Shown in pieces: positions 4,001-61,101 of a DNA stretch of 64,000 nucleotides. Position numbers and translations under genes: made by a program. Source of the DNA: Trichuris trichiura (taxonomy: Eukaryota > Nematoda > Enoplea > Trichinellida > Trichuridae); the NCBI GenBank assembly GCA_037903355.1, contig JBAJFE010000004.1, positions 2,232,001 to 2,296,000 on the forward strand, given 5' to 3'. Under the pieces are notes generated by a model. That model saw only the letters and a program-made list of their open reading frames with translations. It was not told where the DNA came from and searched no databases. Each line of letters starts with the position of its first letter. Position 1 is the first letter of the stretch.

Positions 4001-7000
4001 GTTCAAAATATATCACATTGAAGGACATCTACCCGGTATGTCATCGGTTGGCGCGTGGCGGTTTATTTTGTCGTTAATAGTTTTTGCTTTGCATGCTTTG
4101 GCTTTAATGGGCGTTCCTTAAAGGGAAAGGCATTCAGCTCTGAGCGATCATTTATTATACTAGAAATTGCGGCTATTTTACGCGCTTAAAATCCCGCCAA
4201 AATTGTTCAGTAATTGCATATTCGAATTCTATATTAGTACATTAACGGGTTACTATCGTCTCCTTTGCGTAATTATTTCAAAAAAGTAAATTTCGTTTGC
4301 CGTTGGTGCAGGGTCGCGTGCCTCAGCTGTAACCGATTTCTTGAAATATTGCCACTACGCATCCGCGTAGTAGCAATATTTCAAGAAGCCGATTGCAGCT
4401 CGACTGTTTTATCTAACCTTTTTGCTCGACTGATCATTGGCCAAGATTGCTTAATCGTCCGGTTGTTCAGCTAGCTTTTGCGTCGTAATGATTACTTTTT
4501 CCTCTTATTTTGCCCATTGATTTGTTGACACATATCGCGTCCACTGCCGCGCTCTTTGCAATCGCCTGCATCGTTTTTTTAGCTTCACTCTAAACTCAAA
4601 CCGCTTTTATCTAAAGCCGCTGTTCTTATCGCTGGTGTCGCTGTAACAGACACTGTTTGGAAAGCTGTAAATAGTTCGGATAACTTTGATAAAATCAGCT
4701 GGCCAAGGCGCAGCACAAATGGAAGCCTGCTTGAGAAATGCAGGTTTTTTTCTGAAAAATCTGCTGCCATCCTTTTCAGCCCTTACAGGCGAGCGTGTCA
4801 GCTATTTTGTTTTGTCCTTATCTAAGCCTAAGGCGAAATATGATTCTTAGGAACAGGCCAGGCTTAGGTAAGGGCTGAACACGAAAGTCGGCAAACTTAC
4901 AGTATGACAGCGGGCGCATAACTGACACGGCGTATTTTTTTATAGATATCGCTTAAGGTTTTATACTTAAACCAACCTATGACGAAATTCATTTCAGTAT
5001 CATGTTTTATTCGTGTGTAATATTCTTGAAGCGCAGTTTACCTATTTTAGGCTTGGCTGTAAGGCTTTCGTTAGCGCCCCAAGCAGGCGGTTAGCTACTA
5101 CGCTAAGAATTTTAAAAATCGACATTTTTAATTGAAGGCTGAAAGCTTAACAACTTTTGACGAGCTTTATCTTGTTGTCTATATCCTACCGTTTAGTAAC
5201 TAACTTTGCGCATAGCATATCCTGAAGGAATTGCGTAGTTTGCGAGTTTTATAAAGCCACTTCTGCGTAGGGAAGAAGTCAGTAATTTTACTTTCCAAAT
5301 TTGGCTATGGAGCAGAGCCTTTTTTAAAATTAAAGCATGTACGTTTTTCTCAGCGTGGTTCCGTGCGATTCTTCCCGATTCGGCAATGAAAATTGTGGAA
5401 GAGTCTTGGAATGCTTATCCGTATACGAAGACGCGTTTTTCGTGTCCCTTTATTGACAAGTTCTATTTGGAAGTGGAGACGAAATATTTTAACGACGCCG
5501 GCTGTCAGGAGAATGTGTTCAACCTATCGGAAACCGAATTGAATTTACGTACAGTGGGTAAACATTAAGCAGGGCTCTCGTTCGCTTGACAATCCTAATT
5601 CTTTGCTTTGGTTTGTTTGAAGACGTGATGGACATTGTTAACGATTCGATTCCTGCGGCCGATTACCGAAAAGCGGAAGATCCGAAGCTTTATAAGTCAA
5701 AAGTTACTGGCAGAGGTCCTCTGACGGATAATTGGGTGGAGGAATGTATAGCCACCGGCAGTCCAATCATGTGCGCCTACAAGCTTTGCAAAGTACAATT
5801 CAACTATTGGGGTATGCAATCGAAAGTGGAAAAATTCGTCCATGACTTTGGTATAGTTTCTGAACTAGCTTCCGCCTGGCGCTAATCTCTGTAAAAGCTC
5901 TCAGGCGAACTATGCTTCGGGCGCATAGACAAGCTTGGGCTTGGCAAGACGAATGGTTCAATCTTAGCATAGAAGATGTTAGGAGACTTGAAATTCAAGC
6001 GCAGCGCATACTTCAGGAGCGGGTCGGTTAAGCGTATTTGTCTGCCTTCGCTTTAGCAATGATTTCTTGCTCTTATTAGATGAATGGAAAGAATGCTAAC
6101 AACGTAACTTGCAGGGAACCATTGGCGGGTGTCACTTTGGATCAGACGGCCGTCGCCCGTTCGCCTATTGGTATTTCTTTAAACAACGTTTTTACGAAAA
6201 CACATAGTTCTATAGAATGCGCTCCATTCATTTTTATATATTTTAGTTTGCACTTTGTTATTATTATTATTATTACATCAAAAAAGTTATTTTGTTCTGT
6301 TGCATTTATTGGTTCCTATTTTTCATGTTTTCTTTCCTTTTCCGAAACAACGTATCTCTGCTTAGTAAAAGCTTTGTCTTATTGTTTTGTTGAAGCTATT
6401 TTAGTTTTGCAAGCCGCCCAAACAAGACAAAAAAATCAGTTGACTTTTTAGTTGCCTGTGTTTCAAATTCCCGCTTGAATTTTATCTGTTCTTATGGTTT
6501 GATTTCTCCTATACTTAATAATGCTCTCTTTAGGGTTCATATTATTCTGTCAGTTTGAATTTTGTCAAAATTGTAACTTATGGTCGTCTCTGAAGAAAGA
6601 CGTATTTCAGAAAGAGCGAATTTTTCAACAGGGACGGAACCGGCTTTGTTATTAGACGAGGAAGACGAAGAGGAGGAAGAAGATAATGCTGTGTACTTTG
6701 ACGCTCTTGGTATGCATTCGTTTTGCTGTAAGTTGCGCTAGGAAAAATTGTGACGTCATTTCAGAGTTCAGTTCACTAGATGAGAGCGGTAATCGTTTAG
6801 AGAAGCTTGCAGGTTAGTATCTAGTTAAATCTGACGTATTCAGTACATTTTCATGCTTCTAACGTCTGTTATTAGTTATAATGGACATATTTTTACAACA
6901 ATATTTAATTTTCCGTCTTTGACGCGCTTATGCTTTTAGACAGGGAGCAGAGAGAAAATGTTGGGCAAGAAGTTGGAAAACTCACCAAACTTTTGCTTGT

Positions 7001-10000
7001 TTTCCACGGTGGCCACATTCTGGATGCTTGTTCCGACCAAATGACCACTCATTGCAAGGAGCAAGACGTTCGCGCTTTCAGGTGGCTTACTCTTCATATA
7101 GATGCCCATTTTTGGCAAAACGCCAAGTCTGCTCTTTTTCAGCACAACGTTAGAGACCATTGTCTTGAAGCATTATCAAAGCATGCAGCATGCGATCGCG
7201 GTTCGCCTTGTCCCGTGTGCCAATGTCTTTTGCGATTCGCTAAAATTGCTACAAAAGTAGGCCATTATCTTTTTGATAATTCATAACTTATCCTGAGCAT
7301 CTTTAGCGTCTCACCTTACTACAGTAGTCAAAGTCAAGATGGTGCTAAAAAGTTTTGGGCATTCGCTCCATCGTTGGTTCCGGTTATGTCCACAAAATCA
7401 TCGAAATATTCGGAAGAACTTTCGCGAGCAGTTGACGCGGCAAATCGGGTATACCAGGAGTTTTTGGACTCCGAAAAAGGTAGTGGTTTTGCCGGCGAGG
7501 TATGCTCAAGCCTCTACGCATAAACAGCACCTCTAATCGTTGTTCTTAGGTCTCCATATGTGGAGATGCCGTCGGGGGACTACTCGCCTTCGACGCTCTG
7601 TGTACTCCACCTGCCTCATTCATGCGTTCTTCCAAACATGGCTTTATTTTTACCTCAGCTACAGATGAAGTAACTATTTGATAAAACTCCTTTTTATATT
7701 TTATTGCTTTTTTCAGGTGTATGAGAATATTTCGTTATTTCTATGTATTTTTTAGCTTCCTCTATTCCAATGTAATTCGATTGAGACTTAGGGTCTTCTC
7801 GGGTCGGTCTGCATTCATTTTTCTGCGAACCAGTATGATGCCTGCCATTTGTGTTCAACAATAAAAGCAGCTGTACTCCATGCGCTAAGAAATTCGCATG
7901 GAAGAAGTAAACTCGTCCTGAGCTGAGTAGTATTTTAAACCTGTCTTCAAAAGCAAAGAAAATAAAAATAAATAACGGGGATCAGATATGAAGGTGTAAA
8001 GTTGGTAACGGGTTAGGTGGTTGAAGACGAAATGTACATGGATTTTTCCCGTTTCTATTTGCCAATGAAACGAGTCAAAAAGTAAAAAACTTTATTGTCG
8101 TTCAAAGGCACAAAACCAAACACACGTCTGGCGAAGCTTTCGGCTCAATCTTGAGCCGTCATCAGCGCACGAAGGAGTTGCCCTCCCACTGAGTTCTTCC
8201 TCAGGAGTTGCTCCTCCACCTTTCCGAGTCGTGTGCGTGCCTGTCTAGTCGAACCTTGACCTGTCGAGGATATACGCACACGGCTGGATCAGCTTCGGAG
8301 CAAATTCCTTAGAGGCTGTCCTCGGCGGAGGCACAACGCATAATCGTTGTGCCTCGTTTATGCGTTGTGCCTCCGCCGAGGACAGCCTCTAAGGAATTTG
8401 CTCCGAAGCTGATCCAGCCGTGTGCGTATATCCTCGACAGGTCAAGGTTCGACTAGACAGGCACGCACACGACTCGGAAAGGTGGAGGAGCAACTCCTGA
8501 GGAAGAACTCAGTGGGAGGGCAACTCCTTCGTGCGCTGATGACGGCTCAAGATTGAGCCGAAAGCTTCGCCAGACGTGTGTTTGGTTTTGTGCCTTTGAA
8601 CGACAATAAAGTTTTTTACTTTTTGACTCGTTTCATTGGCAAATAGAAACGGGAAAAATCCATGTACATTTCGTCTTCAAATAACGGGGATGTAGTAATT
8701 TTTTTTGCTACTTTATTAAACGGCAGCTATGGTTTCAGGTTGTATATAGCTCGATTCCATTGACATCAGTCGGTTTTCGAGTTTACAAGCATTTCATCAT
8801 CTCTTATCAGGGCTGCGCCTTGTTCTTTATTTACAAATTAGCGTTACTTGCAGGAAAACCCCGAGCAGACACCGGACACCGTTAGCCAAGGTGGTGTTTC
8901 GTTTTCTCTGGATAGCAAGTTCGAGTCTGCATCGACCGTTGACAGCTGCAGCATTTTGGAAAGGCAGTCGACGCTAACGACACCTACAGAGAATGCCAGA
9001 GCACTATTGAAATTTCCCGTTGAGAACTTGTTCCTTTTTGGGACTTCGTTGGGATTGGTGCTTTCTTCTCGTCAGCTTTCAAGCGGTGCTGACGAAAGGA
9101 ATTTGCATTGGTAGATTATTGACTAATACCGCGCGATTTCAGGTTGCCAAACATTGCCGGCTTGCAACTGCCATAACGTGTACAATTTGTACTACGCAAG
9201 CGACTCGTCCTCTGCCAGAATTGAACCGCTTTTATTGCAAGAGTTTTCAACGATTCCTTCAGTGAAAATTCTTCCTTATTCGCAGTTTCCTCTTGGCGAT
9301 GGTCAATCACTTCACCTGCTCGACTGGATGACAATGGATACTTCGAGCGAAGTGACAAGCATGCCGTCTTCGCCGTGGACTACTATGTCCTCTTCTCCAA
9401 CTTGGAATCGTACACTGCTGAGAAGCAGCTTTGCTTGTCTATCCGTGGACGGCACGTCATTGTCGTCGAAAGGTTGATACTGTTGCGCTTGCGTTGCAAT
9501 TCAGTTATGCGAACTTTTAGGCTCCTCGTGTAGGTCTTCGTCGGCCGCGGACAGTCTGGCAAAATGGTGGGGTTCAAAAAGAATTGATTATGAACTGTTC
9601 GCTCCGGACGACCTGCTGCGATTGCCTTTTTTGTCCTTGTCAAGTTTCTTCTACGCAAGTTTTTGGGAGTCTTGCGACGTGGCTGCTTTTGTTTTGCGCC
9701 AATTGCTTAGCGGTGGAACGACTCGATTGTCAACCATGGAAACTAATACTGCTCGCATCGATGGAACCACGGACAAATGGCTTCGCAAGCTTACCGGTTT
9801 AAAGCTGAAAAATATAGCCGCCAATCATAGAGCCAACGATGTGATTGCGAGCGAAAACCACCGGCAGGTTTTAACAGTCAGTGACCTCTTGGATAAGTTT
9901 GGCATAGTACAGTACAGTCGGCATTTTGCAGGCTCGTTTCATGTATGGACCTTTTGACGTGATTGCCCTGAGCGGTGAATGTGTAGATATTTACATGATG

Positions 10001-37600: not shown

Positions 37601-40600
37601 AAATAATGAACAGATTCAATTCTGCCGCCAATTCGCCAACTTAAGCACTTTTACAATTGGTTGAGAGAACGACCAAATATTTTAATAATTACTCAACTGT
37701 ATTTACCTAGCTGTATTAGGATAGCTCTTTGCATATGGCTATCTACCGGATGCTTACTGAGAGTACCGCTGTACAACGTAGCGAGCTTAAGCAAACCACA
37801 CGAAGATAGCCATCGCACAACATTAAGTTGACGCGTTATTTATGAAATCTGCAAAGCGATTATAAATATAAAACGTTTGGAATGCTGGGAATTAAAATAA
37901 GAGAAATTCATCGTCTTCAGAATAGCAAGGCGCGTTTCTCTATCGATTGCCGTAAGACTTTGACGTTACCATACTCGTTACGAATATGTACATATGCTCC
38001 TGCTTAACATGGCAAAAGATCAAAGAGAATAAAAATCATACAAAGGAAGAAGATTACCCTTTTTACCTACTTTTTTGATGAAGCTTGAAAATGTCCGCAA
38101 TTCTTTCATGAGCAAAGCCAAATGGAGACCAAACAAATGGTTTCCCGAGAAAAACCGTACGAAATCAGAGTGACGTACGAAGCAGGCTAAGTGAATGCTT
38201 TATGCAAATTGTACAGCAAGCGTAAGCCCAAGGCAGGCTTAGCGCAACACTTAGCTTCTTCACTAACCGCCTACATATGTCGGACGCTCACTTGGTGCTT
38301 ACTCTTAGAAAAAAGCAGACGCGCGTACGAATAAACCAAACAGTTTTTGGCAAATATTTAAAGAGTACGAATTTGCTTTTTGCTTAAGATTTACTGCGAA
38401 TGCTCAGCGAAATCGGCTTTCTATGCTTTTAAATAAAATTTATATATACATCCGTAAAAAGTTAGCGGAGCAATGTTGCAACTAAGAAATAACGCCTCGT
38501 CTGTGGTGCACATGAGTTAATGCAATCCATTTTGCTGAATGTTACAACGCGATTCAGTCAAACGGACAAACAAGTAGCCAAAATGTTTGCTAAAGAGGCG
38601 GTAGATTTTGTATAGGTGATTAATACGGAAATAAATGGAGATATGCAAATTAAACATTGGCAAATAGTAGGAACGCTTTTCCAGTAGGACAACAGAAACA
38701 GCTGCTATTCAAAAAGGGATTGCTACGCCCTACCGAAGCAATGTTGGATCATAAAAGCTGCAGGAATTTATTATCCGTCAATGGAGATTTAAAAAAATTA
38801 AAGCCTTTCGAAAGCTGCAGGACAGTGAACGAACTTTTACGCATCTGTTTTGCGCAGCTGCTTGTTCGAACATTATCGCTAGAAAGACGGTTGATTTTTT
38901 GAATCAGCTAAGTTTAATCTATTTACAAAAAAGGTGGAACGGATACTGAATTATGGAAAAAAAAGTAAAAACGTTTTGCTAGTATAATCGAGTGCTGACT
39001 CGCTTCCGTGCTATCAGAAGGCAGGGACAAGTCAGCTCAACATAGCTCACAACCTGGCAGTCTTCGGCAGTAAATAATCAAGGACGGCTTTCACTTTTGC
39101 TGAAATAGCCTTACTAATAAAAAAAAAAAAGAAAAGCTACATCATGACAGCGAAATGTGTAAGCAGTATGCAACAGCGTGCATGCTGGATTCAGCTGTAT
39201 CTAGTACAAGTTCAAGCGAGAACGTAACCAGTGGCAAACTTATCCCATTTGCATATTCAGGACATGCTATTTTTAGTAAATTTTTTCTTCAAAAGTAAAT
39301 CTTCATAGTGGTAGCTTCTACAATTCTTTTGTACTAACATTTTGAGCAATTCAGCAAGCACTGGCCCACCTTGAATGAATTCTAATTGCGTCTCCAAATT
39401 CATAGAGAAATGAAGCTTCCTGACGTAATAACATTAGTCTAGGAGATGCATCTTTCTACGCTACGCGTACTGCACAGTCACGCTTGAACTAGCTTTCTTT
39501 AGGAAATAGGGGCCCACCAGTCACTTGATGAATCATGTGGCATACGTCACCCGAATAAGATGACCACATGTACAAAGCATTAATACACCTCTTAGTTATC
39601 AACCAAAAATTGGTTAATGTAATAATTCTCAATTATCTCTCATTACCGCCGTTTCATAAACTACCTAACCGACGATGGGGCAGGGCTAATCACGAAAGCC
39701 AGTAGGCCTGCTAAAGCTCAAGGCTTATGGTCTTCTTGTTGTATTGACTAATGCCTTCTCTCTGTCAAATGAATATACGCATTGCATTCAGACCACTGCA
39801 GTACATTTAAGATATAGAGCCTAAGAGATTCAAGTGACAATAATGTCAAAGCTTCGAACCGTTGCAACGAACCGTATTTTGGATAACAAGCGCCCATACA
39901 CGCATGCAGTGTGTACCTGATTCTCAAGTTCAAATGCTTTTCAAAAGTTGGAATCGCTTAAAAATGTCTTCCCTTCACTTATCACTTTAAAATCGGAACA
40001 GAAGCCTCGACGTATATTCTGAAAATGATGGTGTCCATTCCCAACCGCTTGCTGAACAAGCACAGCAAAATCAGGCCCGTAAGTCATTTTGCAGCAGGAA
40101 GGTGCAGAGAAAAAAATTACTTTCCCAGATTAAGGAATTATGATATCAACAGTGACGTTATAGCTCTTCCTACACGTTCAGAAATAAATGGGACTAATAT
40201 TATTCGGGATCTTGTTTGCTAAGCGCCCTACCGTCACCCTATAATTTTACCGGCTATCCTGTCCTGCCTTTACCTAAGCCTAAGCCTAAATATAAGGCTT
40301 ATATTTTGGTTTAGACTTAGGTAAAGGCGAAAAAAGATGATTTGCATGTTCACCAGTAAAGGCACAACAAATTAAGGGCATGTTTGCCGGAAAAGAACTT
40401 GCATTTCTCAAACGGTAGGGAGAAGATCCAGCATTTCGTACAAAACAAATTTTTCCTATACCCCCAGGCGAAACGTTACTCTTTAAGAGCAACACTTTGG
40501 AACAGATTAAGTAATCGCTGAGTACATTGAGCATTAACGCGTTCCAGCGCATAGATTTAATGGCTAGCTGCAGTTTACCCAGCGAAAACGATCGATGGTA

Positions 40601-60697: not shown

Positions 60698-61101
60698 AGG
60701 ATACTTAATGGTTGTAAGGTCTTCCACGGCTTTTCCCGTTTTTTTGTTGTGCTGTTATCTGTAATTAAACTAAACAACTGCTCTACCAACGGATGGATGA
60801 GCCGTTATTAAGAAAAGTACAGATATCAACGCACTCAACTGTTTTATTGTTCAAAGCTTTCGGAACGCTCTAGTTCCGTCGTCAGTGAGCTCCACCACCT
60901 CACTGACGACGGAACTAAAAATAGTTGAGTGCGTTGATATCTGTACTTTTCTTAATAACGGCTCATCCATCCGTTGGTAGAGCAGTTGTTTAGTTTAATT
61001 ACAGATAACAGCACAACAAAAAAACGGGAAAAGCCGTGGAAGACCTTACAACCATGAAAATTCAACCCGTTACAAAACATCCAGTTTTCAGGATACTTAA
61101 T
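60698..61101 (+). mobile_element. Fold-back insertion 2: inverted dimer with 12-bp target duplication
   Basis: The insert (60710-61089, 380 bp) is flanked by a direct duplication AGGATACTTAAT at 60698-60709 and 61090-61101. The left arm starts GGTTGTAAGGTCTTCC and the right arm ends with its complement at 61053. A one-sided tail (61054-61089) contains AACCCGTTAC ten bases beyond the arm. The left arm carries, on the minus strand, CTGACGA, a CGGAAC..GTTCCG hairpin and AAAGC followed by AATAAAAC (60856-60885). The right arm has the CTGACGA half but lacks about 30 bases covering the second half. The build matches the insertion at 7971-8691, although most of the arm sequence differs. No protein is encoded. 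Confidence 0.85.
60856..60885 (-). ncRNA. Hammerhead-ribozyme-like core in the left arm of fold-back 2
   Basis: Minus-strand CTGACGA is followed by a C, then GGAAC paired to GTTCC, then GAAAGC. The arrangement (CTGANGAC, GG stem, CC, GAAAGC) is the same as in fold-back 1, but the stem bases differ in a compensating way (GGCTC/GAGCC there, GGAAC/GTTCC here). That pattern suggests a selected RNA structure. It is not a textbook hammerhead because of the extra C. Confidence 0.4.

Follow-up and report, generated by a model that had tools for sequence, protein, structure and literature searches.

We conclude that both fold-back insertions in the window (the whole stretch of 64,000 nucleotides of whipworm DNA analysed here) are head-to-head, 5′-truncated insertions of Penelope-like elements (PLEs), with pseudo-LTR arm ends that carry a minimal type I hammerhead-like motif and AATAAA, a reading to which we would give a probability of roughly three in four. 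Comparison of copies demonstrates, at the level of sequence, the predicted fold, its covariation, the linkage to PLEs, the target site duplications and, in the set of insertions that was scored, a rule of exactly one tail per insertion. The thousands of motif copies, together with many recent two-ended insertions, constitute a direct record of integration. Published accounts, as excerpted, treat the integration of PLEs and the function of their hammerheads as open questions, in the words ‘unknown role’ and ‘still a mystery’ (PMC7761336) and with steps ‘yet to be validated’ (PMC11167929).

Fold-back 1, the representative of family 1, spans positions 7983–8678 and has a hammerhead-like motif in both arms. 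The arms (8021–8346, minus strand, and 8355–8680, plus strand) form a 326-bp inverted repeat that is 100% complementary, with a spacer of 8 nt. Copies of a target site duplication (AAATAACGGGGAT) lie at 7970–7982 and 8679–8691, the final 2 nt of the right arm being common to arm and duplication. The right arm is tail-less; a 38-nt tail is found at the left end only (7983–8020, minus strand), and this family-1 tail is without an ATG and retains CCCGTTAC. Including stem I, the motif occupies 8533–8570 of the right arm on the plus strand and, as its mirror, 8131–8168 of the left arm on the minus strand; without stem I the corresponding limits are 8536–8566, reading CTGATGA-C-GGCTC-AAGATT-GAGCC-GAAA-GC-T, and 8135–8165. 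In the right arm, stem I pairs GCG (8533–8535) with CGC (8568–8570), and between them lie CUGAUGA (8536–8542), an extra C (8543), stem II (GGCUC/GAGCC, 8544–8548/8555–8559, with the loop AAGAUU), GAAA (8560–8563), GC (8564–8565), U16.1 (8566) and U17 (8567). An AATAAA follows 3′ of the motif on the plus strand (8605–8610).

Fold-back 2 (60710–61089), of family 2, is flanked by the target site duplication AGGATACTTAAT at 60698–60709 and 61090–61101. Its intact motif is on the minus strand only, at 60855–60885 without stem I and 60851–60888 with it, stem I being TCA/TGA and stem II GGAAC/GUUCC; the right arm retains a plus-strand motif remnant (60903–60917), which by a count made by eye has lost 25 nt. 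Here the tail, of 34 nt, is at the right end only (61056–61089, plus strand), and together with the two preceding bases it reads ATG AAA ATT CAA CCC GTT ACA, where the ATG is presumably the start of the PLE reading frame. The original prediction that both insertions contain the core thus holds for both families, though not for all four arms, given the 25 nt missing from the right copy of fold-back 2, and the AATAAA expected downstream of the motif is present in both families. The window also contains two short near-perfect palindromes without the motif, at 4321–4410 and 40261–40335.

A DDAH-like protein encoded in the window shares 95% identity with a T. suis protein and 85% with one of T. muris, in keeping with a Trichuris host. 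The motif was counted across the whole host genome (72.7 Mb, 62 contigs), with the reversed pattern as a control. A strict pattern, CTGANGACGG-N0-26-CCGAAAGCTT, gave 655 matches against 0 for its reverse, and a wider one, CTGANGANGG-N8-20-CCGAAANNT, gave 3,794 against 2, on which basis a chance origin was rejected. Twelve minus-strand matches fall on contigs C60 and C61, those on C61 mostly 7–8 kb apart, perhaps in a large tandem array. The layout of the motif is that of a type I hammerhead, with covarying stems I and II, CUGANGA, GAAA, U16.1 and H17. The CUGANGA and GAAA core is present in the window copies; these letters and A15.1 were preset in the search patterns, so that matches outside the window carry them by construction.

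Stem I, in which the bases immediately 5′ of CTGANGA pair with those 3′ of GAAAGCUN, was overlooked when the hammerhead-like fold was first proposed, and it strengthens the case for that fold. The search pattern imposed no requirement for stem I, and a full 3-bp stem was found in 32 of 40 distinct rows, whereas 2,000 shuffles averaged 14.3 and never exceeded 23; the pairs observed include CCG/CGG, GCG/CGC, UCG/CGA, UCA/UGA and ACG/CGU. For 24 rows, hand-picked among 73 distinct rows, 95% of the cells in stems I and II were paired, compared with 13–65% in slid controls. Compensating changes in the stems, as originally claimed for the two families, were evident in the same rows: 30 cells were altered in both partners, where shuffling gave 8.7 on average, and the covariation score was 0.457 against 0.149, a value as high being reached in 0 of 500 shuffles. 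A weaker measure, which counts the pairs showing at least one double change, gave 5 against a shuffled 3.9 and was matched in 86 of 500 shuffles. Conservation of the stem among genome-wide copies, on which the prediction had staked itself, is what we find. Positions 16.1 and 17, which belong to the hammerhead core consensus according to the available passages of PMC3088659, also conform: U16.1 is present in 68 of the 73 distinct rows although the pattern did not demand a U there, and position 17 over 40 rows is T in 18, C in 15, A in 6 and G in 1, giving H17 in 39/40.

There is no stem III in the motif itself, as A15.1 and U16.1 flank two bases only. Across the 3,794 copies these two bases are GC in 3,153, CG in 379 and one of fourteen other pairs in 262, such that 3,532 of the 3,794 carry AGCU or ACGU. 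Both tetranucleotides are self-complementary, and two motifs could therefore jointly supply a stem III of 4 bp. Going from GC to CG takes two substitutions, yet CG exceeds all other departures combined; the ACGU class may go back to a single old event that spread.

Matches to the GIY-YIG domain were found at 71 places in the genome. Among 30 GIY-YIG loci of about 3.1 kb each, the relaxed motif was present in 20 and absent from 10, and in 18 of the 30 it lay downstream on the coding strand, approximately 440–1,450 nt past the GIY-YIG match, which bears out the suggested connection with Penelope. Hammerheads of PLEs are reported to be minimal, usually without helix III, with dimer action a possibility (PMC6155905, PMC7229834, PMC7761336 and PMC6466107, all in extract). 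Because the published PLE forms lack helix III and the motif lies downstream in 18/30 loci, the motif is, on sequence grounds, a core-variant form of the minimal PLE hammerhead. We consider the fold and the PLE origin well supported and very probably correct. Hallmarks of PLEs that were found are a reverse transcriptase with GIY-YIG, inverted pLTRs, a tail and target duplications of variable length. One predicted protein of 638 amino acids (P0001) has both RVT_1 and GIY-YIG domains, and its 11 best-scoring relatives are all proteins of T. muris or T. suis, at 44–65% identity. No PLE coding was detected in the window at E≤0.001 with 43 PLE proteins as queries.

The original prediction cast the fold-backs as non-autonomous partners of such an element and proposed a search for a PLE reverse transcriptase with the same 3′ end. 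That search succeeded for family 2: PLE coding is joined to the family-2 3′ end at two loci, L040 (97% over 137 nt) and L091 (99% over 172 nt). The protein of the family-2 relative at L040 (P0002) has a Pfam match to RVT_1 only, with GIY-YIG-like letters seen by eye. Since these two loci unite PLE coding with the family-2 end, family 2 looks, from the shared sequence, like truncated copies of a coding PLE rather than a separate non-autonomous partner. For family 1 the proposal possibly stands. A tblastn scan of the 700 nt upstream of 12 family-1 copies from 11 loci found no PLE coding, where part of the 700-nt stretches is inverted partner or flank and one locus (L033) is a distant relative only; family 1 may thus be non-autonomous.

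By eye, a likely ATG lies about 80–175 nt past the motif, and the tail spans roughly the first 12 codons. Translation by eye gives a likely frame start in several families, either within the tail or in the bases immediately ahead of it, for example MKIQPVTKHPVF and MKLFGPVRRHYIF. Past the motif and AATAAA, each arm seems to close with the beginning of the following unit's reading frame. We also observed that an ACGGG between the motif and the likely frame start is complementary to a CCCGT in the tail. The two recur in L023, L026, L044, L046 and L053, and the window site lies at 8647–8653. A stem around the reverse transcription start sites, with a nearly invariant core, is one possible explanation.

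For 98 loci plus the window, a non-random sample made up of best matches and the first places on contig C1, we recorded the ends, the tails and the target duplications. A duplication of 9 bp or more accompanied 44 inverted repeats, four of which were dropped: a microsatellite posing as a duplication with the tail in the right flank (C27:274991, L53/R43), a ‘duplication’ that is the motif's own stem (C1:1724274, scored L-4/R-4, that is, tail-less at both ends), a spurious case (C47:7653, L40/R51) and an AT repeat (C47:1550642, L11/R27). The remaining 40 rows represent 39 independent insertions, as C1:1081761 and C1:1083881 share one duplication and were counted as one insertion within a larger inverted duplication. 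Exactly one end was tailed in 40 of 40 rows (20 left, 20 right, none with both or neither). The tail measured 28–43 nt in 39 of them and 62 nt in one, and the target duplications 9–16 bp. A further 35 inverted repeats without a called duplication, some overlapping the counted ones, were excluded; eight of these were inspected, and one tail was found in three, the other five being unclassifiable. A tail on one arm was already known as an optional feature, and the strict one-tail rule is new here; our literature searches, several of them with partial listings, gave no report of whipworm PLE hammerheads or of such a rule, nor do the excerpts of PMC11167929 on a lizard PLE mention a single tail per two-ended insertion. 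One tail per insertion restricts the models of integration that can be entertained, and any PLE-rich genome offers a check on it.

Arm identity in family 1 averaged 98.6% within an insertion (n=8) and 95.6% between insertions (28 pairs), and in family 2 99.4% (n=10) and 98.5% (45 pairs), for hand-picked insertions whose within and between ranges overlap. That the arms are more alike within than between insertions fits one RNA source per insertion. In five clear coding cases the tail was borne by the long arm in three and the short arm in two; three more had coding on both sides, and nucleotide matching was ambiguous with inverted copies in the database. There is thus no polarity of the tail by arm length, which means that the order of events is not fixed by these data, and the composition of the flanks of the fold-backs gave no sign of which strand was primed first. 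In the flanks of the 40 fold-backs, A is enriched (65% and 62%) at a distance of 19–20 nt outside the tailed junction, possibly a target preference.

These observations can be accommodated in the following scheme. The GIY-YIG endonuclease of the element would cut both target strands, 9–16 bp apart, and the element RNA would be reverse-transcribed with both target 3′ ends serving as primers. At one end synthesis would start some 35 nt closer to the 3′ end of the RNA, leaving a tail, and at the other at the nearer site, leaving none; both cDNAs would terminate early and their inner ends would then be joined. The motif in the RNA would be a hammerhead without a stem III of its own, completed by the AGCU/ACGU palindromes in a dimer or aided by protein. 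We consider priming on both strands likely. For a lizard PLE, the protein is described as cutting and extending both DNA strands, with two RNA start sites that delimit the tail and that are alike on both strands (PMC11167929, in the sections available). As the tail can be on either side (20/20), either strand could take the far start site. An independent choice at each end predicts insertions with two tails or none, and as there are none among the 40 scored, unlike start sites at the two ends fit the data.

Other origins for the fold-backs have to be weighed against this scheme. Long perfect palindromes with near-identical arms within an insertion are what snap-back or self-priming of a single cDNA would also give, as would self-priming on an antisense template, which the excerpted text of PMC3846280 puts forward for rotifer Penelope. 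The copied-back strand should then share the end of its template, yet 40 of 40 insertions have one tail, and we regard such an origin as improbable. Inverted repeats and target duplications are likewise the hallmarks of DNA transposons or MITEs with terminal inverted repeats. The inner junctions, arm lengths and duplication lengths (9–16) nonetheless differ between copies, the two ends are unlike by a tail, and PLE coding is found in the loops of 8 of the 40 scored copies; with neither the terminal inverted repeats nor the duplication length fixed, we rejected this origin, which seems to us scarcely credible. The retrozymes, which are tandem, non-autonomous hammerhead elements with a circular RNA, come to mind for family 1, where no coding was detected, and three plus-strand motifs at an exact spacing of 475 bp at C1:2085522–2086503 form a tandem array that is possibly retrozyme-like. 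The window copies, however, are head-to-head, non-tandem and without stem III, and it is very unlikely that they are retrozymes.

In the motif, A9 is separated from stem II by a single extra base, which is C or U in nearly all copies, so that stem II does not directly follow A9. The extra C after CTGANGA pointed out in the window is general: among 3,153 copies ending in GCU, with patterns restricted to a stem II beginning GG/CC, the base is T in 224 and a purine in 49, which by subtraction leaves 2,880 with C. The form without it accounts for no more than 41 copies, and 18 of these, by a count made by eye, fit the extra-G form as well. An Rfam scan of the window and both fold-backs returned no hammerhead up to E=10. 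The matches below the gathering threshold (the best being MIR396, E=0.00056, 29 of 80 gathering bits) were set aside as hairpin or chance. A genome search with RF00163 and RF00008 gave no hammerhead among the 73 of 12,095 and 68 of 13,815 first-look candidates that were scored, and the control genomes were also without a match. The covariance-model hit that the original prediction called for thus failed to appear in the window, the fold-backs or the scored genome candidates, a result that is not decisive given that hammerheads of phages are missed as well.

In viral (IMG/VR) contigs, a pattern requiring the extra base matched at least 120 stretches. For 24 of 124 occurrences examined, H17 was present together with three stems of sufficient length (4 bp or more for stems I and II, 3 bp or more for stem III), compared with 2/372 in a control with a shifted stem I strand; among the matches listed, 21 of these 24 have U as the extra base, the other 3 have G, and C does not occur. 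Three-helix viral hammerheads with the extra base include L100, L106, L119, L151, L153, L155, L175 and L177. At Rfam gathering thresholds no hammerhead was reported in the 10 viral contigs tried, although 13 of the 24 lie in them, and one such hammerhead scored 12.3 bits against a threshold of 34. Since Rfam also misses these phage hammerheads, the negative result in the worm says little. Close relatives of P0001 were not found in the viral contigs. A strict hammerhead screen discarded core changes and core-adjacent mispairs unless activity had been measured, according to the available part of PMC3088659, and the extra base suggests that strict screens of this kind and the Rfam models tried may be missing a real class.

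Whether the RNA cleaves is a separate matter. When the family-1 monomer is folded to minimum energy, the extra C is paired with G12, which we take to be the general base, and there is a lone pair in the core, and in an unconstrained dimer fold long stem-II pairing is favoured over a double hammerhead. Judging from the sequence, we place self-cleavage of the motif at slightly worse than even odds. The motif could instead be a fossil hammerhead, retained as a protein-binding or template hairpin and no longer cleaving, an appreciable possibility that we think less probable still. Stem III is missing and the extra base is able to pair with G12, as a fossil would permit, and the lizard PLE hammerhead, in the excerpted account, cleaves only with protein, its mutants being unchanged for insertion in vitro (PMC11167929). 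H17 and the AGCU/ACGU palindrome, in contrast, are retained across many copies, beyond the needs of a plain hairpin. A bolder proposal joins the two halves of the problem: every PLE insertion would obligately involve both strands, with far and near starts and two non-equivalent reverse transcriptases per complex, and the extra pyrimidine would act as a lock, keeping the hammerhead inactive through its pairing with G12 until it is released by protein or by a second motif. Taken jointly, this is speculative and probably wrong in at least some part.

An extra core base is not peculiar to whipworm. The Chrysanthemum chlorotic mottle viroid (+) hammerhead reportedly has one likewise, between A9 and stem II, although it is an A there and C or U here. 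Deleting the extra base of a viroid hammerhead raised cleavage and abolished infectivity, according to the extract of PMC11014351. The closest counterparts are the minimal type I hammerheads of PLEs (Cervera and de la Pena, 2014; Lunse et al., 2017), which share the core of stems I and II, the absence of helix III, the location in PLE pseudo-LTRs and possible action as dimers; compared with these forms as they appear in passages citing them, the whipworm motif differs in its near-obligatory extra pyrimidine. The Adineta vaga Penelope, in the portions of PMC3846280 available, is similar in its inverted pLTRs, short target duplications, ORF start within the pLTR and a 31-bp tail on one of the inverted pLTRs, and differs in that the tail is termed optional and self-priming on an antisense template is proposed. 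In Poseidon PAc of Anolis carolinensis, as described in the excerpts of PMC11167929, the hammerhead adjoins the start of an ORF for a protein with RT and GIY-YIG, and two reverse transcription start sites bound a tail of 30–40 nt, as in whipworm; unlike in whipworm, the PAc ORF begins from stem II and the start sites lie 111–118 nt inside it.
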